Assembly: GCA_016872645.1 (NCBI GenBank)
Contig: VGZH01000001.1
Location: forward strand, 1 to 64,000
Source of the DNA: Planctomycetota bacterium
Lineage (GTDB): Bacteria; Planctomycetota; Planctomycetia; Planctomycetales; Planctomycetaceae
Length of the DNA stretch: 64,000 nt
Direction: 5' to 3'
Below, piece after piece: positions 53,575-63,758 of this stretch; position 1 is the first letter of the stretch; every line of letters begins with the position of its first letter. Under the pieces are notes generated by a model. The model was not told where the DNA came from, did no database searches, and saw nothing but the letters and a program-made list of their open reading frames with translations. Both the position numbers and the translations under genes were made by a program.

Positions 53575-53904
53575 GACCGCGAGCCGAGCCGGCGGACTGA
53601 CAATAACGATCGCAATGACCAGCGCGACAACGCTGATCCGAATTTGGATCGAGGACCGAGTTCCCAGTCCCACCGATCGGATGATCGACGATGGGACTCA
53701 CAACCGCTGACAGGTGGACGTGGTGGATTCGGTCCGCCTCCCGGTGATCCGCGCGGTGGCTTTGGTTCGCAGCAGCGAGGCTCGAGTCGTGATCGTGGTG
53801 ATTTTGTTCCGCCGCACGGTCGCAACGGCGATCGAGGACGCAGCAACTTCCGTCCGCCATTCAGTGAACCAAGTCACGATCGCGGCCACACGGTGCCGTG
53901 GTAA
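53575..53904 (+). pseudogene. Gly/Arg/Pro-rich protein fragment
   Basis: After TAA 53572-53574 the same frame stays open to TAA at 53902, with the biased text RTDNNDRNDQRDNADPNLDR, GGRGGFGPPPGDPRGGFGSQ and RGDFVPPHGRNGDRGRSN. No good start codon precedes it (only TTG 53644). Upstream of the stop, the frame also reads sensibly, so the feature is probably a gene broken by a nonsense change. Such low-complexity proteins bind RNA or form exported disordered tails; nothing more can be said. Confidence 0.45.
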
Positions 53905-54121
53905 GACTGGAGCCGCACGGACCCGACGGACGAGTTCAGCGAATCACGCAGAACTTGCCAAGACGATCGCTGGCCGTTCGTTGAAAATTCTGCCGGAACC
54001 TGACTGCGTGGATATTCGTCGAATGACCGGGAATAATCCGCCAGGAACTAACCGAGACGCTCGGGCAATTCTTCGATCCGCTCGACAGACCTCTCTGATC
54101 CAACAACTGGGGAATGCATCC

Positions 54122-55150
54122 ATGTCTCAGCCCGCGGCAACGACCGTTTCGGAAAAGCTGTCAGAAACCGATGTCCAGGCGATTGACCACCTTCGCGAAG
54201 TTTACGCGAAGCTGCAAAAAGAACTCGCCCGAGTCATCGTCGGCCAGAATGACACGATCGAGCGGTTGGCGATTTGCCTGTTTGCTCGTGGGCACGCGCT
54301 GTTGATGGGGGTGCCGGGGCTGGCCAAGACGCTGCTGGTCAGCAAGCTGGCCGAGACCATGTCGCTGAAGTTCAGCCGCATCCAGTTCACTCCCGACTTG
54401 ATGCCGATGGACATCACTGGCACCGACATCCTGCAAGACACAGCAGGTGGCAAACGTGATTTCGAGTTCGTTCACGGGCCGATCTTCGCGAACATCGTGC
54501 TGGCAGATGAAATCAACCGTGCGCCCCCAAAGACGCAGGCAGCGATGCTCGAAGCGATGCAGGAGCGGAAGGTCACCGTCGTCGGCAAGGCGTTCAAGCT
54601 CGAAGCTCCGTTTCTGGTGTTGGCCACGCAAAACCCGGTCGAGCAGGAAGGGACGTACCCGCTTCCGGAAGCACAGCTTGACCGGTTCATGTTCTTGATC
54701 GAGCTGGACTATCCCAACGAAGACGAAGAGGTACGAATCGCTCGTACGACGACGGGAGATGATCTTCCGGAGTTGAGTCATCTACTGCACGCCGAAGACA
54801 TCATTCGCCATCAGCATCTGGTCCGTCGCGTGCCCGTGCCGGATCACATCTATCAATTTGCGGCGCGGTTAGTCCGGAAGACTCGCCCGAACGGCGAGAC
54901 GGCTCCCGGCTGGCTCAAGCCACTCGTCGCCTGGGGAGCCGGTCCGCGAGCAGTGCAGAATTTGATCCTCGGCGCGAAAGCCCGCGCGGCGTTGATGGGG
55001 AGTTACATGGTCCGGCTGGAAGACATCCAAGTGGTCGCCGTCCCCGTGCTGACGCATCGCATCATTACCACCTTCGCCGCGCAGGCTGAAGGTATCGACG
55101 CCAAGAAGATCGTGCGGCGCCTGCTCGAAGAAACGAACGCGGAGGCGTGA
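54122..55150 (+). CDS. MoxR family AAA+ ATPase
   Basis: I chose ATG 54122 (MSQPAATTVSEKLSETDVQA); a longer open frame upstream is not conserved-looking. The 342-residue ATPase has Walker A GVPGLAKT, Walker B IVLADEINRAPP, the sensor segment VLATQNPVEQEGTYPLPEAQ and the arginine-finger region LDRFMFLIELDYP. MoxR proteins act as chaperones that load metals or insert partners with vWA proteins. The DUF58 and vWA/BatA genes follow directly, the standard moxR-DUF58-batA layout. A palindromic repeat occupies the spacer to DUF58. Confidence 0.94.
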   Translation: MSQPAATTVSEKLSETDVQAIDHLREVYAKLQKELARVIVGQNDTIERLAICLFARGHALLMGVPGLAKTLLVSKLAETMSLKFSRIQFTPDLMPMDITGTDILQDTAGGKRDFEFVHGPIFANIVLADEINRAPPKTQAAMLEAMQERKVTVVGKAFKLEAPFLVLATQNPVEQEGTYPLPEAQLDRFMFLIELDYPNEDEEVRIARTTTGDDLPELSHLLHAEDIIRHQHLVRRVPVPDHIYQFAARLVRKTRPNGETAPGWLKPLVAWGAGPRAVQNLILGAKARAALMGSYMVRLEDIQVVAVPVLTHRIITTFAAQAEGIDAKKIVRRLLEETNAEA

Positions 55151-55153
55151 TGT

Positions 55154-55228
55154 GGCGCACGCGGCTCGCGTGCACAGGCTTTTCCGTCCAACAAAGACAA
55201 TCACAACTTCGGCACGCGAGCCGCGTGC
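55154..55228. repeat. Palindromic repeat inside the moxR operon
   Basis: GGCGCACGCGGCTCGCGTGC (55154-55173) and GCACGCGAGCCGCGTGC (55212-55228) are inverted copies of about 17 bp around a 38-bp loop. The element sits within the moxR-to-DUF58 spacer, where it may attenuate or stabilise the transcript. Confidence 0.65.
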
Positions 55229-55257
55229 CCCACAATTCGATTCCCGAAAGCCCACGG

Positions 55258-56169
55258 ATGTTTGCTGATCGTCAGCCTCGCAGCTTTTTGGATACCGGCG
55301 CGCTGTCGCGACTGGCGGCCGTGCCCTTGAATTCGCGGCGACCGATGCTGGGAAGCGTGTCGGGGCGGCATACCAGTCCGCATCGTGGAGCCAGCGTCGA
55401 ATTCGCCGAGTATCGCAAATACGTTCCCGGCGATGATCTGCGGCGGCTTGATTGGCGAGCCTACGGACGCTCCGATCGCTTCTACGTCAAAGAGTTCGAG
55501 GCGGATACCAACCTGCGGCTGTGCGCGGTACTCGACACAAGCGGGTCGATGGACTTTGGTTCGACCGGCATCACGAAGATCGAATATGCCCGCAAGTTGG
55601 CCGGATCTTTGGCCTATTTGGCGAGTCAACAAGGGGACGCGGTCGGGCTGTCGTGCGTGGCGAATACGATCGTCCGCAACATCCCGCCGAAGCGCGGACC
55701 CGCGCATCTGATGAACGTGTTCGACATCCTCGAACAAGCTCAGCCGAGCGGCGAGACGCAGCTGATTGGGGTACTGCATGAACTGGCTGAGACAATTCGG
55801 CAGCGAGCCTTGATCGTGATTCTGTCCGACTTCTTCGTCGAACCGGACTTGCTGCGCGGCTGCTTGCAGCATCTGCGGTTTCGCAAACACGACGTTTCGA
55901 TGTTTCAGTTGCTCGACCCGCTGGAAATCAACTTCAATTTTCGTCGGCCGATGCGTTTTATCGACATGGAAGGTGGTCCGTCGATCTTCGCGGAACCGAA
56001 CGAGATCGCCGACCGCTACCAAAAAGCGTTACAGAAATATGCCGACGAATTGCTGGCGGTCGTGCTGGAGTCGGCGGTCGACTTTCATCCGGTCACGCTC
56101 GACGAAAACTTCGAGCAAGTGCTGATGCGATTCCTCGTCGGCCGTACTCGGACGAAGGGGGTGCGATGA
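55258..56169 (+). CDS. DUF58 protein with vWA-type domain
   Basis: The start is ATG 55258 (MFADRQPRSFLDTGALSRLA); an upstream frame overlaps the repeat. The 303-residue protein has the DUF58 signature RGASVEFAEYRKYVPGDDLR, RLDWRAYGRSDRFYVKEFEA, then a vWA MIDAS motif VLDTSGSMDFG (about residues 108-118). A metal-dependent adhesion domain paired with MoxR is typical. The gene ends with a 4-bp overlap into the BatA-like gene, so translation is coupled. Confidence 0.92.
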   Translation: MFADRQPRSFLDTGALSRLAAVPLNSRRPMLGSVSGRHTSPHRGASVEFAEYRKYVPGDDLRRLDWRAYGRSDRFYVKEFEADTNLRLCAVLDTSGSMDFGSTGITKIEYARKLAGSLAYLASQQGDAVGLSCVANTIVRNIPPKRGPAHLMNVFDILEQAQPSGETQLIGVLHELAETIRQRALIVILSDFFVEPDLLRGCLQHLRFRKHDVSMFQLLDPLEINFNFRRPMRFIDMEGGPSIFAEPNEIADRYQKALQKYADELLAVVLESAVDFHPVTLDENFEQVLMRFLVGRTRTKGVR

Positions 56170-58151
56170 GCTTCCTTCAACCGCTTCTTCTCGCCGGTCT
56201 GCCGCTCATCTCGCTGCCGATTCTGATTCACCTCATCAACCAGCGTCGGTTTCAGACGATTCGCTGGGGAGCGATGATGTTTCTGCTCGCGGCGAATCGG
56301 ATGTCGCGCGGGTATGCCAAGCTGCGACAATGGCTGATCCTGGTTTTTCGCACCTTGGCGATTGCAGGGTTGATCTTCGGCGTTGCTCGGCCGCTGGCGA
56401 GCGGTTGGCTGGGGCTGACAGCCGGAGGTCGGCCCGATACGACAATTATTTTGCTCGACCGGTCGCCGAGCATGAGACAGCAAGGCGAAGGGCAAGTCGG
56501 AACAAAACTCGATACGGGGCGGTATCAGTTGGCCCGATCGCTGGGCCTGCTCGGCTCGGCTAAATGGGTGTTAATCGAGAGCACGACGAATACGCCGCGC
56601 GAGATCGAATCACCCGAAGTTTTACTGAATCTGCCCGCGACTGAACCGTCCAGCGCGTCGGCCGACCTGCCGGTAATGCTGCAAGCGGCTCACGATTATG
56701 TGAAGGCGAATAAGTCGGGGCGCACGGAGATTTGGATCTGCTCAGACATCCGCGCGAACGATTGGAACTCGGAAAGCGGCCGCTGGGCGACGCTGCGTGA
56801 TGCGTTTCTCGAACTGACGCAGGGGGTGCGATTTCACTTGCTGGCTTACGCGCAGTCAGCGACAGGCAACGTGTCACTGCGCGTCACAAATGTCCGACGA
56901 CAACAGAGCAGCGACGGGGCCGAGTTACTTGTGTCGCTCAAACTGAGCCGCGAAGGGGTCGCGGATGATGCCGAGAAAGTTTCGGTGCCGGTCTCGTTCG
57001 AGATCGAAGGGGCACGCTCAGAAGCGACCTTTGAAATAAGCGGCTCAACGTTCGAGATGAAGGATCATCGCATTCCGATTGAACGCTCGAAAGATCGAGG
57101 ATGGGGAAAAGTCTCGATCCCGGCGGATGCGAACTCGGCGGACAACGATTTCTATTTCGTGTTCGATCGACCGGCGGTGCGGCAGACGATTATCGTGGCC
57201 GATGACGCGAATGCCGCTCGACCACTGCAACTGTCGGCGGGAATTTCACCCGATCCGGCCATGAAACTCGCGGCGGAAGTGCTCACGGTCGATCAACTGC
57301 CGACCGTCGAGTGGGATCAAGTCTCGCTGGTGCTGTGGCAAGCGGCGCTGCCCGATGGTCCAACGGCCGATGCGATTCAAATGCTCGTCGATCGCGGCGG
57401 ACAAGTCATCTTCTTTCCGACGCAGGGTGTGACGAGTACCTCGTTCGCTGGCATGTCCTGGCAATCGTGGAATGAATCTCCGGACGGCATCGCGATCGAG
57501 ACGTGGCGCGTCGATCAAGACTTGCTGGCGAATACTCAAAGCGGAGCCGCGTTGCCCGTCGGACAATTGCAGGTCCGCAAGCACTGCGGTTTATCGGGAG
57601 AACACACTCCGCTGGCGACGCTCAAAGGGGGTGCGCCGTTGCTGGCTCGAGTGACGACGAATCGTGGCGGCGTGTATTTCTGCGCGACGACTCCGGCTGC
57701 GGCTGACTCGTCGCTGGCCGAGAACGGCGTCGTCTTGTACGTGCTCGTACAACGAGCGCTTGGGCTAGGCGCGGCAGTACTGGGGAATACTCGGCAACTG
57801 GTGGCAGGGGATGTCTCTGGCGAGCAACCGACTGCGTGGCAACAACTCGCTGGGCCGCCAGACGCGCTCTCCACCGAATTCGCGTTTCATGGCGGAGTCT
57901 ATTCGGGAGGCGAACGCTTGCTGGCGCTCAACCGCGCGAGTGCCGAAGATCAAGCGGCAGTGCTGGCCGATGGGCGAATCGCCGAGTTGTTTCAAGGGCT
58001 GGACTTCGCTCGTGTCGATGACAAAGCCGGCAACCTCGCCGCGCTGATTCAAGAGATTTGGCGTCTGTTCCTCGTCGCCATGATCATCGCCCTGATCGTC
58101 GAGGCGGCGTTATGTTTGCCAAAGAAAGTGACTCAGGTTGTGTCCGCTTAA
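56166..58151 (+). CDS. BatA-like vWA membrane protein
   Basis: The 661-residue protein begins with two membrane helices and the BatA signature SFLQPLLLAGLPLISLPILI, HLINQRRFQTIRWGAMMFLL. The vWA MIDAS is TTIILLDRSPSMRQQG (about residues 92-107). The long periplasmic middle contains a Rossmann-like or GATase-like domain (VDRGGQVIFFPTQGVTS). A C-terminal helix (LFLVAMIIALIVEAALCL) anchors it. It follows the DUF58 gene with ATGA overlap. In aerotolerance operons, BatA-type proteins work with MoxR; its exact task here is unknown. Ordinary BatA is about 330 residues. Confidence 0.9.
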   Translation: MSFLQPLLLAGLPLISLPILIHLINQRRFQTIRWGAMMFLLAANRMSRGYAKLRQWLILVFRTLAIAGLIFGVARPLASGWLGLTAGGRPDTTIILLDRSPSMRQQGEGQVGTKLDTGRYQLARSLGLLGSAKWVLIESTTNTPREIESPEVLLNLPATEPSSASADLPVMLQAAHDYVKANKSGRTEIWICSDIRANDWNSESGRWATLRDAFLELTQGVRFHLLAYAQSATGNVSLRVTNVRRQQSSDGAELLVSLKLSREGVADDAEKVSVPVSFEIEGARSEATFEISGSTFEMKDHRIPIERSKDRGWGKVSIPADANSADNDFYFVFDRPAVRQTIIVADDANAARPLQLSAGISPDPAMKLAAEVLTVDQLPTVEWDQVSLVLWQAALPDGPTADAIQMLVDRGGQVIFFPTQGVTSTSFAGMSWQSWNESPDGIAIETWRVDQDLLANTQSGAALPVGQLQVRKHCGLSGEHTPLATLKGGAPLLARVTTNRGGVYFCATTPAAADSSLAENGVVLYVLVQRALGLGAAVLGNTRQLVAGDVSGEQPTAWQQLAGPPDALSTEFAFHGGVYSGGERLLALNRASAEDQAAVLADGRIAELFQGLDFARVDDKAGNLAALIQEIWRLFLVAMIIALIVEAALCLPKKVTQVVSA

Positions 58152-58229
58152 AAACGCGTAATGGCAATCGGCTGACAGCATTCGGCCGAACTCCGAATGC
58201 CGATCGCCTTTATCTCCTTTTTGGTTGTT

Positions 58230-60437
58230 ATGAACTCCACCCGTTCACTCACGTTCTTATGGACCCCTGGATCGCTGGCTGTGTCAGTGATTGCGGTGTT
58301 GGTCGCGACCGGCTTCTGTTGGGCGGCTTGGCGACGATCGGGGTATCGGCCGTCGTTGGGGATGCTCGAAGTCCTTCGGCTGGTGATCGTCGTGCTGGCG
58401 GCGGTGATGTTCAATCAGCCGGAATGGGTCGAGGAATTTCGCCCCGACGAAAAGCCGTCGATCGCAGTGCTGTGGGATGACTCAACCAGCATGGGGACGA
58501 AGGACATCTCACCGAGTAGTTCGCCGGGGACGCCGAATTCGTCGTTGATGACTCGAAAGGAAGCGATTGCCGGGATGACCGAGGCGGCGGTATGGGTGAA
58601 GCTCAATGAGAAGATGAATGTCGTGATTCAGCCATTCGCGTCACCTCAGCCGGGACGCGGGACCGATCTGCATGAGCCGCTCGCGGAAGCTCCGGAGAAG
58701 TTCAAGAACTTGCTGGGCGTCGTGCTGATCTCTGACGGCGATTGGAACGAAGGTCTGCCGCCGGTGCAGGCGGCATCGCGGTTGAGATTGAAGGGGGTAC
58801 CGGTCTTCACCGTACCGGTGGGGAGTCCGATTCGGTTGCCGGATTTGGAATTGCTCAGCCTCGACGCGCCGACGTTCGGCATCGCGGGGAAGTCGGTGCG
58901 GATTCCGTTCGCGATCGAAAGCTCTTTGCCGCGCGAGACGACGACGACCGTGACGCTCAAGACGTCGGACGGCGACGAGGTCACGAAGGAAGTTCGCATC
59001 GCCGCGATGGGTCGTACGAGCGAATCGATCACCTGGAAACCAAAGACGACCGGCGACTTTACGCTGACGCTCGACGTCCCCAAGCACAGCGACGAGACAC
59101 TGATCGACAACAACAAACTGACCGCTCCGATCGTGATTCGCGAAGAGAAACTCAAAGTGCTGGTTGTCGAATCCTATCCGCGGTGGGAGTACCGCTATCT
59201 CCGCAACGCGCTGTCGCGCGATCCGGGAGTCGAGGTTTCATGCCTGCTGTTTCATCCGGGGCTGAGCAAAGTTGGCGGCGGCAACAAGGACTACATCAAA
59301 CAGTTTCCGAGCGGGCTTGATGAGCTGTCGAAGTTTGACGTTGTGTTCTTGGGCGATGTCGGTATCGACGACGGGCAACTCACACAAGAGCAATGCCGGT
59401 TGCTCAAAGGTTTGGTGGAGCATCAAGCGAGCGGTCTCGTCTTCATGCCGGGAATGCAAGGTCGTCAGTTCAGTTTGCTCGACACGGAATTAGACGACCT
59501 CAACCCGGTGGTGCTCGATGAGGGCCAGCCGAGCGGTTGGGGTTCGCGCACGCCGGGACATTTTGAGCTGATGGAACTTGGACGCCGCAGCTTGCTCACC
59601 AAGCTGGCTGACACGACCGACGACAACATGGAAGTCTGGGAAGACCTCCCCGGCTTCCAGTGGTACGCGCCGGTCGTCAAAGCGAAGGCCGGCAGCGAAG
59701 TGCTCGCGGTCCACAAGGACATCACCAACGAGTACGGTCGATTGCCGTTGCTGGTGACTCGCACGTTCGGAGCGGGCAAGGTCTTGTTCATGGGGACCGA
59801 CGGTGCATGGCGTTGGCGAAAGGGAGTCGAAGACAAATACCACTATCGCTTCTGGGGCCAGGTCGTCCGCTGGATGGCCTACCAACGCAACATGGCCAAA
59901 GGGGAAACCATGCGACTGTATTACTCCCCCGATCAGCCGCAGATGCGACAGACGTTGGCCCTGCACGCGAACGTGATGGAACGAAGCGGCGAGCCGCTCG
60001 CGAAGGGAGACGTCACCGCCCGCATCGTGGCTCCGTCTGGAAAAGCCGAGACAGTTCGGTTTATCTCCGCCGGTGACGAATGGGGCGTCTTCCACAGCCG
60101 CTTCGCCGCCGAAGAACCGGGCAAGCACGAAGTCACGCTGCTCTGCAAGCAAACGAACTCCACACTGGAAACCTCGTTCTTCGTGCAAGGAGTCGCTGCC
60201 GAAAGAGTCGGCAAACCGGCTCGGCCAGAGGTGCTTGAGGAAATCGCTCGCGTCACGCGGGGCAAAGTGCTGGAACCGTCGAAAGTCCAAGAAATCGTGC
60301 AATCATTAGCCAATCTTCCGGAACCTTTACCGTCCATCCGCCGCGTCCAACTCTGGAGCCACCCGGTTTATGCCGGACTTTTGGTGCTGTTGCTGGGCGT
60401 ATTTTGGGTGGGTCGAAAGGTGATTGGGTTGATATGA
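58230..60437 (+). CDS. Second vWA/GATase-like membrane protein of the moxR cluster
   Basis: I chose ATG 58230 (MNSTRSLTFLWTPGSLAVSV); ATG 58197 is also possible. The roughly 735-residue chain has two N-terminal helices (SLAVSVIAVLVATGFCWAAW; MLEVLRLVIVVLAAVMFNQP). A vWA-like MIDAS VLWDDSTSMGTKD (about residues 90-102) and a GATase1-like domain (VLVVESYPRWEYRYLRNALS; GLVFMPGMQGRQFS) follow, with one C-terminal helix (YAGLLVLLLGVFWVGRKVIG). This is the pattern of the large planctomycete homologues in moxR/batA clusters. It follows the BatA-like gene by 78 bp. Confidence 0.85.
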   Translation: MNSTRSLTFLWTPGSLAVSVIAVLVATGFCWAAWRRSGYRPSLGMLEVLRLVIVVLAAVMFNQPEWVEEFRPDEKPSIAVLWDDSTSMGTKDISPSSSPGTPNSSLMTRKEAIAGMTEAAVWVKLNEKMNVVIQPFASPQPGRGTDLHEPLAEAPEKFKNLLGVVLISDGDWNEGLPPVQAASRLRLKGVPVFTVPVGSPIRLPDLELLSLDAPTFGIAGKSVRIPFAIESSLPRETTTTVTLKTSDGDEVTKEVRIAAMGRTSESITWKPKTTGDFTLTLDVPKHSDETLIDNNKLTAPIVIREEKLKVLVVESYPRWEYRYLRNALSRDPGVEVSCLLFHPGLSKVGGGNKDYIKQFPSGLDELSKFDVVFLGDVGIDDGQLTQEQCRLLKGLVEHQASGLVFMPGMQGRQFSLLDTELDDLNPVVLDEGQPSGWGSRTPGHFELMELGRRSLLTKLADTTDDNMEVWEDLPGFQWYAPVVKAKAGSEVLAVHKDITNEYGRLPLLVTRTFGAGKVLFMGTDGAWRWRKGVEDKYHYRFWGQVVRWMAYQRNMAKGETMRLYYSPDQPQMRQTLALHANVMERSGEPLAKGDVTARIVAPSGKAETVRFISAGDEWGVFHSRFAAEEPGKHEVTLLCKQTNSTLETSFFVQGVAAERVGKPARPEVLEEIARVTRGKVLEPSKVQEIVQSLANLPEPLPSIRRVQLWSHPVYAGLLVLLLGVFWVGRKVIGLI

Positions 60438-60485
60438 TCCGCATGCGTCTGACGGGTGCTCGTGTCCATGAAGGAGATCGGAGCC

Positions 60486-63146
60486 ATGAGTCTTGCTCAC
60501 CATCGATTGACGTTGCCGGAGTCGTTGCAGACGCAATTGCTCGACTTTCGTCGGCGCGTGTGGACGGTCAAGTTAGTCGAGGCCGTTTGTGGCTCGGTCG
60601 TCGGCATCTTGGTCGCGTTTTTGGCGACCTTCTTGCTGGACCGAGTGTTCGACACGCCATGGGAGGTGCGGTTGGGCATCTTTGTGGCGGCGATGGTTGG
60701 CTGCGGATTGATTCCGCTGGCGCTGCATCGCTGGATTTGGCAGCAGCGGAAGTTGGAACAACTCGCGCGGTTGCTGGCCCGGAAGCATCCCAGCGTGGGG
60801 GATCAGTTGCTGGGCATCATCGAACTGGTGCATAGCGAGAGCGAGCAGGCTCGGTCGCTGGCCTTGTGCGAAGCGGCCGTGAAACAAGTGGCCGAGGTTG
60901 CGACGAAGCGGGACTTCAGCGATTCGGTGCCGAACCCGAAGCATCGCAGTCGGGGAGTCATGGCGGGCATCGCGTTGACCATCGCCGTCGCGCTGCTGGC
61001 GATTGTCCCCGCTGCCGCGACGAATGCATGGGCGCGGTTCCTCATGCCGTGGGGCGACACGCCGCGGTACACGTTTGCGTCCATTGAACCCGTCTCGAAT
61101 CGTCTGGTGGTTGCTCACGGCGAGCCGTTCACCGTTGCCGTCACGTTGGCGAAGGAATCGGTCTGGCAGCCGGACCAGGGTGAAGTGCAACTCGGTGGAC
61201 AGCGGCCAATCGCGGCCAAGCTGCGCGAGGGGCGGTACGAGTTTGAAGTTCCAGGCCAGATCGACGATGGCTGGTTGATTGTTCGCATTGGCGATCTTTC
61301 GCAGCGAGTTCGCGTGCAGCCGATGATGCGGCCCGAACTGGCCTCGATCGGAGCGGATGTGGCTTTGCCGGAGTACCTCGGCCGCACTCAGTCGCAACAT
61401 AAAGATGTGCGTGGTGGAACGATCTCGCTCGTGCAAGGGAGCAGTGCGACCTTCACCGCGACAGCCAGCCGGGCGTTGACTTCGGCAGAGTTGGACGGAA
61501 AGCCGCTGGCACCGGGTGGCAAGCAGGTGACAAGTCCCAGCATCAGTGTCTCGGAGACTCGCAAGGTGGAATTCACCTGGTGCGACGAGCACAAGCTCTC
61601 CGGCAAAGAACCGTTCGTACTGACGATTAATAGCCGCGAGGACGAAGCTCCGTCCCTTTCGGCCGAGGATTTGCCAAGACAAAAAGTGGTCCTCGATTCG
61701 GAGGCGCTGAACTTCAAGATTCGTGCTCAGGACGATTTCGGAGTCAAACAAGTCGGCATCGACTGGCGGGGAATCGACACGACGAATTTCAAGAATCCGG
61801 CCAAAGGGGAGCGCATCCTCGCGGCAGGCGGAGCGGACAAGGAACAACTCGAACTCGCCGGTACGTTCTCGGCCACCTCGCTGGGGATCGAACCGCAGCC
61901 GATCCAAGTGCGGCTGTTCGCCGAAGATTACTTCCCCGGTCGCGAGCGAATTTATTCGCCGACTTACACGTTCTATGTACTCAACGCGGAACAGCACGCG
62001 ATCTGGGTGACGGAGATGCTCAGCAAGTGGCATCGCCAGTCGCTGGAAGTCCGCGACAAAGAGATGGCGCTGCACGAAACGAATAAGGCTCTGCGCGAAA
62101 TGTCCCCCAGCGATTTGGATCAACCCGAGAATCGCAAAAAGATCGAAGGGCAAGCCGCCGCCGAACGGGCTAACGGACGACGCCTGTCGAACCTCGCGCT
62201 CAACGGTGAAGACTTGGTCAAGCAGGCGATGCGCAATCCCGAGATCGGCGTGGGCCATCTCGAAAAATGGGCCGAGATGCTCAACATCCTGAAGGACATC
62301 TCCGGCAATCGGATGCCATCCGTTGCTGATCTGCTCAAGCAGGCGTCGCAGGCTCCCAAGACCGCGTCGAATTCTGAGTCACCAAGCAACAAGTCTCCAA
62401 AGGCGGGCGAGACGCGAGCGTCCGCCGCCGGCCAGCCGACGGAACCAGATCCAAACGCCAAAAAGCAACCGCCGACCAAAGTCCCGTCGGTCAACGATGT
62501 CGAATCGACTCACGGCTTCGCGAAGAAGGACGACAAGAACGGATCGGCGGAAGCACCCAGCAAATCCGGAAAGCCCAGTTTGGGACTGGCCACCACAACG
62601 CTGATTGGCCCGCCGAAGAAAGGGGACGACAAGTGCCCCGCCGATCAGAAGGTCGAGGAAGCGGTGAAAGAGCAACAAGACTTGCTCGCCGAGTTTGAGA
62701 AGCTCACCGATGAACTCAACAAGGTGTTGGCGAATCTTGAAGGAAGCACGCTGGTCAAGCGGCTCAAGGCGGAGTCTCGCCTGCAGTACAAAATCGGAGG
62801 CCGCATCGGCGATCAGGTCAGCGATGCGTTTGGCCTGCCTCCGAATGCGGCCAAGGAATCGGCGACGAAGCTCTTCACGGAACTGGTGGCTCAGGAAGCG
62901 AAGAGCAGCCAATCGATCTCCAACATCATGGACGACCTGCAGGCGTACTTCGAGCGGCGTCGGATGATGTCCTTCAAAGCGGTGCTCGACGACATGCGAG
63001 CACAGGATGTCATCGGCGGACTGCGAGCGCTCGGCGATGACCTCAAGAAGGAGAACGGCCTGTCAATAGCCCAATGCGAGTACTGGTCGGACGCGATGGA
63101 CCGGTGGGCGGAGGATTTGGTCGATCCGACCAAAGGAGGCACCTGA
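60486..63146 (+). CDS. DUF4175-like membrane protein ending at an in-frame TGA
   Basis: I chose ATG 60486, preceded by AAGGAG. The 886-residue chain has two N-terminal helices (VVGILVAFLATFLLD; LGIFVAAMVGCGLIPLALHR), then a third near 165-185 (GVMAGIALTIAVALLAIVPA). Beta domains and a long charged C-terminus with coiled-coil character follow. The frame stops at TGA 63144-63146 after WAEDLVDPTKGGT. The same frame then stays open for 204 more codons with sequence continuing the same style, so the true gene may extend to 63758 (see next entry). It belongs to the moxR cluster by position and direction. Confidence 0.72.
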   Translation: MSLAHHRLTLPESLQTQLLDFRRRVWTVKLVEAVCGSVVGILVAFLATFLLDRVFDTPWEVRLGIFVAAMVGCGLIPLALHRWIWQQRKLEQLARLLARKHPSVGDQLLGIIELVHSESEQARSLALCEAAVKQVAEVATKRDFSDSVPNPKHRSRGVMAGIALTIAVALLAIVPAAATNAWARFLMPWGDTPRYTFASIEPVSNRLVVAHGEPFTVAVTLAKESVWQPDQGEVQLGGQRPIAAKLREGRYEFEVPGQIDDGWLIVRIGDLSQRVRVQPMMRPELASIGADVALPEYLGRTQSQHKDVRGGTISLVQGSSATFTATASRALTSAELDGKPLAPGGKQVTSPSISVSETRKVEFTWCDEHKLSGKEPFVLTINSREDEAPSLSAEDLPRQKVVLDSEALNFKIRAQDDFGVKQVGIDWRGIDTTNFKNPAKGERILAAGGADKEQLELAGTFSATSLGIEPQPIQVRLFAEDYFPGRERIYSPTYTFYVLNAEQHAIWVTEMLSKWHRQSLEVRDKEMALHETNKALREMSPSDLDQPENRKKIEGQAAAERANGRRLSNLALNGEDLVKQAMRNPEIGVGHLEKWAEMLNILKDISGNRMPSVADLLKQASQAPKTASNSESPSNKSPKAGETRASAAGQPTEPDPNAKKQPPTKVPSVNDVESTHGFAKKDDKNGSAEAPSKSGKPSLGLATTTLIGPPKKGDDKCPADQKVEEAVKEQQDLLAEFEKLTDELNKVLANLEGSTLVKRLKAESRLQYKIGGRIGDQVSDAFGLPPNAAKESATKLFTELVAQEAKSSQSISNIMDDLQAYFERRRMMSFKAVLDDMRAQDVIGGLRALGDDLKKENGLSIAQCEYWSDAMDRWAEDLVDPTKGGT

Positions 63147-63758
63147 CCCGGCGGCAAATCGCGCGGCAGTTTGCCGCCATCCATCGTGCTGGAAGTTCTG
63201 CAAATCCTCGAAGGCGAAGTGAATCTGCGTGAAGAAACTCGCGTCGCCGAACAAGCCAAACCGGCCATCAAAGTTGAAGAGCACGCCAGGCAGGCCGAGC
63301 AACTCGCTGAAGTGCAGCACAAGCTCGGCGAGCGGACGGAGATCGTCGTCGATCGCATTCGTGCGCTCGAAAACGGTGAGGAAGAATTTGGCAAGGAAAT
63401 CGCTTTGTTGAGACAAGTCGCCTCGGTCATGTTCGATGCCAAGACGATTCTGAGCAAAGCAGACACCGGCAAGCCGGCGGTCGCGGCCGAGACGGAAGCG
63501 ATCGAATTGCTGCTGCAATCCAAACGGATCAATCCCAAAGGAGGCGGCGGTGGCGGTGCGAATCCCGGCGGCGGGGGTAGCGGCACGACCAACGACTCGG
63601 CCCTGACGCTCATCGGCACCGGCGTCAACGAAAAGGAAAACCGCGAGGATCACGGTGTCTCGCAAGCCACAGGAGATTCGGGACCGAAGCTACCCGAAGA
63701 ATTCCGCACCGGCTTGGATGAGTACTTCAACCGACTCGAAAAGAACGCCAACAAATAA
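63147..63758 (+). CDS. Downstream part of the same gene, beyond TGA 63144-63146
   Basis: In the same frame, 204 codons from PGGKSRGSLPPSIVLEVLQI to LDEYFNRLEKNANK are open up to TAA 63756-63758. They form a coiled-coil part (about residues 20-90) and a Gly-rich linker. No good start codon with a ribosome site is seen; TTG 63171 is the first weak candidate. The absence of any other lesion argues for readthrough, selenocysteine or a very recent mutation rather than old decay. If separate, it would be a small soluble protein needing reinitiation. Confidence 0.55.
   Translation, partial: PGGKSRGSLPPSIVLEVLQILEGEVNLREETRVAEQAKPAIKVEEHARQAEQLAEVQHKLGERTEIVVDRIRALENGEEEFGKEIALLRQVASVMFDAKTILSKADTGKPAVAAETEAIELLLQSKRINPKGGGGGGANPGGGGSGTTNDSALTLIGTGVNEKENREDHGVSQATGDSGPKLPEEFRTGLDEYFNRLEKNANK
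63150..63178 (+). promoter_or_regulatory. Perfect hairpin right after the in-frame TGA (SECIS-like or readthrough element)
   Basis: GGCGGCAAA (63150-63158) pairs with TTTGCCGCC (63170-63178) around the 11-nt loop TCGCGCGGCAG. The GG of the loop lies 19-20 nt after the TGA, within the range known for bacterial SECIS loops, and TGA is followed by C, a leaky context. There is no T-tract, so it is not a terminator. Confidence 0.5.

Follow-up and report, generated by a model that had tools for sequence, protein, structure and literature searches.

In this study, a stretch of 64,000 nucleotides from a Planctomycetota bacterium (GenBank assembly GCA_016872645.1, contig VGZH01000001.1, positions 1 to 64,000 of the forward strand), hereafter called the window, was analyzed with respect to a gene at 60486-63758 that contains an in-frame TGA codon at 63144-63146. 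Comparison of this gene with its relatives indicates that the UGA is very probably a selenocysteine (Sec) codon. The initial annotation of the window had considered selenocysteine, readthrough and a fresh nonsense mutation, and had taken a 9-bp hairpin directly behind the TGA for the selenocysteine insertion sequence (SECIS). The selenocysteine option is strongly supported by: (i) a cysteine (Cys) column at the site in homologues, (ii) the sel genes of the genome and (iii) sister genomes, which keep TGA and not a sense codon at the site. The hairpin chosen as the SECIS is probably not the functional one; a smaller hairpin overlapping it fits the data better.

Conservation of the in-frame TGA

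As the initial annotation had stated, the TGA is the only stop in the frame 60486-63758, with 886 codons on its 5' side and 203 codons on its 3' side, the latter containing neither a frameshift nor an additional stop (a GTG at 60456 is an alternative in-frame start). The Cys homologues are mostly encoded by one unbroken frame of about 1090-1150 codons. TGA also serves as an ordinary stop in this genome, since the upstream neighbouring gene ends with it (60435-60437).

Homologues were matched in 27 of 59 related genomes and in 134 of 397 genomes of the class, the class set being sampled from a larger group. The site was read in 148 loci, and after removal of 5 rows (L027 and L030, site not covered; L029, same place as L023; L182 and L183, fragment or weak paralogue) 29 TGA genes and 114 non-TGA genes were retained. 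Outside this count are short fragments, a second copy in G388 with the same score and marginal hits (e.g. G241 and G018). The TGA falls in one and the same column in all 29 TGA genes, which come from 29 genomes, 16 genera and 5 families (by group codes). Apart from the window genome, its carriers are 8 further genomes of the same genus and 20 genomes from 15 other genera. Within the window's genus (12 genomes), TGA was found in 9, Cys in 2 and no match in one (G011, 91% complete). The non-TGA genes encode Cys at this column in 98 of 114 cases, the other 16 having Gly, Ser, Glu, Lys or Pro. On a protein tree calculated with the site left out (and additionally without L179), the Sec label changes 13 times, and 11 of these changes are forced by well-supported branches. 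Sec and Cys appear, then, to have been exchanged repeatedly, the changes being counted without telling gain from loss. Two further observations concern single genomes: G019 carries two copies of the gene, with Sec in one and Gly at that column in the other (L012, L028), and the Cys-type homologue L179 (G225:C32) has two in-frame TAG codons and is either a broken copy or affected by a sequencing error.

Within the genus, the median ratio of nonsynonymous to synonymous substitution rates (dN/dS) is 0.11 downstream of the TGA and 0.05 upstream of it (36 pairs, dS about 0.6), and the extension beyond the TGA is under purifying selection. These results bear on the possibility that the TGA is undecoded, i.e. 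a fresh nonsense mutation, an assembly error or a mark of a decaying pseudogene. Such an origin would agree with the single in-frame stop, and a hairpin conserved in one genus would not prove recoding. However, the same TGA is present in 29 genomes of 16 genera, which excludes the fresh nonsense mutation named in the initial annotation. Taken with the low dN/dS downstream, the synonymous codons fixed 3' of the TGA (see below) and the absence of a further stop or frameshift, it leaves this explanation with a negligible probability. It is also extremely improbable that two proteins are produced, one ending at the TGA as a true stop and the other, made up of the C-terminal 195-203 residues, beginning at an internal start codon (e.g. 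TTG 63171). A TTG-started open reading frame (63171-63758) can be listed by rule, but this TTG is the Leu+9 codon inside the proposed SECIS, each Cys homologue is one chain of about 1100 residues, and residue conservation continues straight across the site.

RNA signal downstream of the UGA

In the TGA genes, CAGTTTGCC is unchanged in 29 of 29 and GGCAGTTTGCC in 26 of 29. Ser+8 is encoded by AGT and Leu+9 by TTG in all of them, whereas the AGT-TTG pair was found in 10 of the 114 non-TGA genes. Codon entropy in the TGA set is lowest at codons +5 and +7 to +10, which are the bottom five of 97 degenerate columns with an invariant residue (mean over these columns, 1.45 bits). The fixed codons fold into GCGGCA-GUU-UGCCGC, whose GCA-GUU-UGC part we take to be similar to the Escherichia coli fdhF loop. 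A loop-adjacent stem of at least 4 bp can be formed in 26 of 29 TGA genes versus 12 of 114 non-TGA genes, and pair 21-33 is maintained as C-G, U-G, G-C and U-A.

This hairpin (63163-63177) has a 6-bp stem, a 3-nt loop, a UGA-to-loop spacing of 22 nt and a folding energy of -9.8 kcal/mol. It agrees with the bacterial SECIS model of PMC13188914 on each of its four constraints: a stem of 4-16 bp, a loop of 3-9 nt with G in the first two loop positions, a distance of 16-37 nt from the UGA and a minimum free energy of at most -7.5 kcal/mol. It is likely, judging from these codon-level and folding patterns, that the hairpin is the working SECIS.

The 9-bp hairpin described initially does exist, with arms GGCGGCAAA (63150-63158) and TTTGCCGCC (63170-63178), an 11-nt loop and, as had been claimed, a GG in that loop (63165-63166). 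The window contains 19 perfect 9-bp hairpins if loops of 3-15 nt are allowed, although this particular one arises in only 0.95% of 20,000 synonymous recodings of the stretch. The 61-nt fold showed no excess stability over shuffled sequences (z -0.92, 28 of 200 equally good). Taken alone, this hairpin is weak evidence of recoding. Its arms are identical in all nine genes of the genus and it is the minimum-energy fold there, both of which would suit a variant of the Sec assignment in which SelB, in this genus, recognises the 9-bp hairpin, alone or in interplay with the smaller one. This variant is unlikely, because in other TGA genera the hairpin is broken (central pairs 10-32 and 11-31 are lost in 9 of 24 distinct sequences from several genera, with zero both-sided changes and so no compensatory change seen), and because the fixed codons point to the smaller hairpin. 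In addition, its loop is longer than the 3-9 nt permitted by the SECIS model of PMC13188914. The larger hairpin is thus probably not the SECIS.

When a ribosome is stalled on the UGA it would cover the 5' arm of the 9-bp hairpin, leaving the smaller hairpin free. A search of Rfam over 62900-63400 returned a lone chance hit far under the cut-off.

A separate case is gene L024 (G025, contig C272), which contains two in-frame TGAs 18 nt apart and reads UPSGGTUPGG. In the sister row L145, a Cys stands opposite the upstream TGA. The distances of the two TGAs from the loop of the one hairpin are 37 and 19 nt, both inside the 16-37 nt range. It is possible that this gene encodes a double selenoprotein, with two Sec inserted by means of one hairpin.

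Selenocysteine machinery

The initial annotation had suggested looking for sel genes, and these were found: the window genome has tRNA-Sec with anticodon TCA (UCA), SelA (E 1.1e-131), SelB (333 bits vs a cut-off of 242) and SelD (297 bits vs a cut-off of 125). SelB, searched in 12 of the 29 TGA genomes, is above the cut-off in 10 and in pieces in 2. Among 111 genomes having non-TGA copies only, SelA (E < 1e-60) is present in 33; matches at E 1e-20 to 1e-60 were scored as absent, which concerns 10 genomes having no stronger one. The raw association between SelA and the TGA, with kinship ignored, has a Fisher p of 1.8e-11. Moreover, in-frame TGA codons were found in known selenoprotein families of TGA genomes, namely Fdh-alpha (G153:C164 and G160:C148) and SelD (G310:C19 and G130:C1), which is consistent with the use of Sec in these four genomes.

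Selenium-free readthrough, programmed or leaky, by a near-cognate tRNA would yield a short and a long product and agrees with the UGA-C context. It is nevertheless highly unlikely, given that 98 of the 114 non-TGA genes have Cys as the alternative residue, that SelA is present in 28 of the 29 TGA genomes and that the RNA constraint lies at the distance expected for SelB and includes a G-U loop.

Several side observations were made on the machinery itself. Weak SelA matches (E 1e-24 to 1e-49) were obtained in G111, G125, G186, G194, G239, G261, G332, G361, G374 and G376, in which full SelA was not found; these may perhaps represent a SelA-like pyridoxal phosphate protein with another role. G040 has a SelA match of 7e-69, with neither tRNA-Sec nor SelB above the cut-off. 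Partial tRNA-Sec copies (either the first 46 bases at the 5' end or the 3' half starting at base 29) occur beside the full gene or replace it (Table 1) and look like attachment-site remnants of elements integrating into selC. The SelD of G000 (C23:9115-10047) and of many other genomes is part of a longer open frame (about 740-880 codons), the short form being found in few genomes; given this length, SelD is probably fused to another domain.

Weighing the selenocysteine assignment

A number of observations count against the Sec assignment or against the hairpin proposed for it. Concerning the RNA, free RNA of the genus folds more stably into the 9-bp hairpin than into the proposed SECIS, and RNAalifold applied to the alignment chose three other pairs only, not the proposed SECIS. 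Both-sided changes are found in one of its six stem pairs only, and its outermost pair is open in 7 of 24 distinct sequences. In three TGA genes (G025, G314 and G350) an A-C mismatch, due to Asp replacing Gly there, leaves 2 bp beside the loop. The exact loop motif is not enriched in the window genome (16 sites vs 18 for the control). Concerning the machinery, SelA was not found in G160 (83% complete); this genome does have tRNA-Sec, and SelA is present in G153 of the same genus. SelD was matched in 28 of 29 TGA genomes, G006 being without a match. Intact tRNA-Sec was found in 17 of 29 and not recognised in 12 of 29; in G010 the gene is cut at a contig end (87 of 93 bases). On independent tree pairs the SelA association keeps its direction and is not significant (about 3.8 for, 0.5 against, median p 0.25). 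Furthermore, a second selenoprotein with an in-frame TGA was not found in the window genome (Fdh-alpha, SelD and about 451 kb covered), and its Fdh-alpha is free of TGA. Finally, the residue is dispensable in some lineages, given the 16 of 114 non-TGA genes that lack both Sec and Cys.

The scan of about 451 kb for intragenic TGA gave 16 candidates, with TGA 63144 ranked first. The second-ranked candidate was rejected, being two adjacent genes that share one frame (FabZ beside TrmB).

Gene neighbourhood and protein properties

The putative selenoprotein gene is the fifth in a row, preceded by genes for a MoxR-type ATPase, a DUF58 protein, a BatA-type membrane protein and a large protein with a sub-threshold GATase1_like match (Table 1). 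The adjacency of the MoxR, DUF58 and BatA genes, as seen in the window, matches the Bat (aerotolerance) cluster. The redox link of this cluster is weak, because deletion of the bat genes of Leptospira biflexa did not produce an oxidative phenotype according to PMC3557215.

Table 1 Features of the window and partial tRNA-Sec copies in related genomes.
Feature	Position	Strand	Remarks
MoxR-type AAA ATPase (PF07726)	53714..55150	+	True start may be downstream of the listed GTG
DUF58 / vWA protein (PF01882)	55147..56169	+	
Membrane protein, BatA N-terminal domain, 'Aerotolerance regulator N-terminal' (PF07584)	56166..58151	+	
Large protein, sub-threshold GATase1_like (PF07090) match	58197..60437	+	Stop is TGA
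Putative selenoprotein gene	60486..63758	+	1090 aa, Sec would be residue 887; end by standard code 63146
In-frame UGA, very probably read as selenocysteine	63144..63146	+	TGA at same column in 29 genes; Cys in 98/114 non-TGA genes
C-terminal extension, produced only if UGA is recoded	63147..63758	+	203 codons; long helices, Gly-rich stretch, conserved C-terminus
9-bp hairpin of the initial annotation	63150..63178	+	3' arm shared with proposed SECIS; the two are mutually exclusive
Proposed SECIS hairpin	63163..63177	+	Stem GCGGCA 63163-63168 / UGCCGC 63172-63177, loop GUU 63169-63171
Next gene, 335 aa	63863..64000	+	Runs past window end; no Pfam match
Partial tRNA-Sec copy	G005:C190:2577-2622		
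Partial tRNA-Sec copy	G009:C2:1124-1169		
Partial tRNA-Sec copy	G009:C103:1357-1419		
Partial tRNA-Sec copy	G010:C23:65490-65554		
Partial tRNA-Sec copy	G006:C125:681-745		

The window protein has no match above the cut-off in Pfam and NCBIfam (release 20.0), and a search of a plasmid collection gave zero matches. N-terminal transmembrane stretches were noted by eye from the sequence, and their arrangement would place the C-terminal part on the outer side of the membrane. Modelling of residues 499-1090 with AlphaFold2 gave an all-helix structure (mean predicted local distance difference test score 70), in which two long helices are joined by a loop (383-395) predicted with low confidence; Sec, as model residue 389, is at the centre of this loop. 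The model has no fold match in the PDB at E 0.001, nor does the protein have a sequence relative among solved structures. A thioredoxin-like fold was not seen in this all-helix model without a PDB match, in which the loop is modelled at low confidence. The motif around Sec is GG(T/S)-U-PG(G/S/A/C). There is no further Cys in 26 of 29 Sec loops, and one to three extra Cys are present in 83 of 98 Cys loops (CxxC in 37 of 98), which may be read as one selenol doing the work of several thiols in the relatives.

We infer Sec insertion as such, the topology and the role of the residue from these comparisons. In the proposed mechanism, SelB with Sec-tRNA-Sec would bind the short hairpin 22 nt past the UGA (loop G then U) and insert Sec, which would yield the full 1090-residue membrane-anchored protein of the MoxR-DUF58-BatA cluster. 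Sec in the flexible loop between the long helices would most likely act as a single redox-active selenol on the outer side of the membrane, and might bond to a partner chain as a selenenylsulfide or diselenide, or serve as a metal ligand. More tentatively, and with a probability that we would place below even, the protein may represent a new selenoprotein family: a large, non-thioredoxin, helical envelope protein that works with a MoxR-vWA/BatA complex and uses the Sec of its flexible loop as a redox switch or to bind a metal.

Comparison with known systems

The significance of these observations is fourfold. Firstly, the candidate family has unusually clean support, from its spread over 16 genera, the repeated exchange of Sec and Cys and the SECIS signature seen at the codon level. 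Secondly, the family would place selenium in the MoxR-BatA envelope system, the function of which is disputed. Thirdly, the Sec or Cys residue would mark a chemically active spot in a protein without a known domain, and so offer a direct way into that system. Fourthly, a stable hairpin after a UGA is not necessarily the SECIS, as here a conserved one overlaps it. Because standard gene calling truncates at UGA, the selenoprotein is likely mis-annotated in the species that bear Sec.

The open-access literature was searched, and neither the family of the window protein nor a selenoprotein in a MoxR/Bat cluster came up by name. As far as could be checked by comparing descriptions and models, the selenoprotein family is new and its mechanism would be the known bacterial one. 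Table 1 of a 2026 review (PMC13188914) contains, by the count given there, 119 selenoprotein families or subfamilies. Like several of these, the window protein would combine Sec/Cys exchange with a UxxG or UxxS type motif, but none of the 119, compared by their listed entries, is recognisably the window protein. In the accessible text of PMC4807772, selenoproteins of the planctomycetes P1 and P2 are reported, with FdhA and FmdB named. The phylum and the presence of Sec machinery are shared with the window genome, and the window protein is set apart from these two named proteins only. The portions seen of two further sources name three hypothetical selenoproteins of sulfate reducers (PMC12013277) and refer to planctomycetes only as one of the phyla for which there were few genomes (PMC1794560).

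The type case of a SelB-decoded bacterial selenoprotein with an in-frame SECIS is FdhF of E. coli. The window gene resembles bacterial SelB-dependent selenoprotein genes in several ways: it has an in-frame UGA and Cys homologues, a hairpin with a small G-U loop lies 16-37 nt behind the UGA, and the genome encodes SelA, SelB, SelC and SelD. It differs in that the protein is helical without a recognised redox domain and that a bulged U was not identified in the stem. With the Bat clusters it shares the gene order MoxR, DUF58 and BatA, located upstream of the selenoprotein gene; unlike them, the window adds a large helical protein with a putative Sec/Cys loop.

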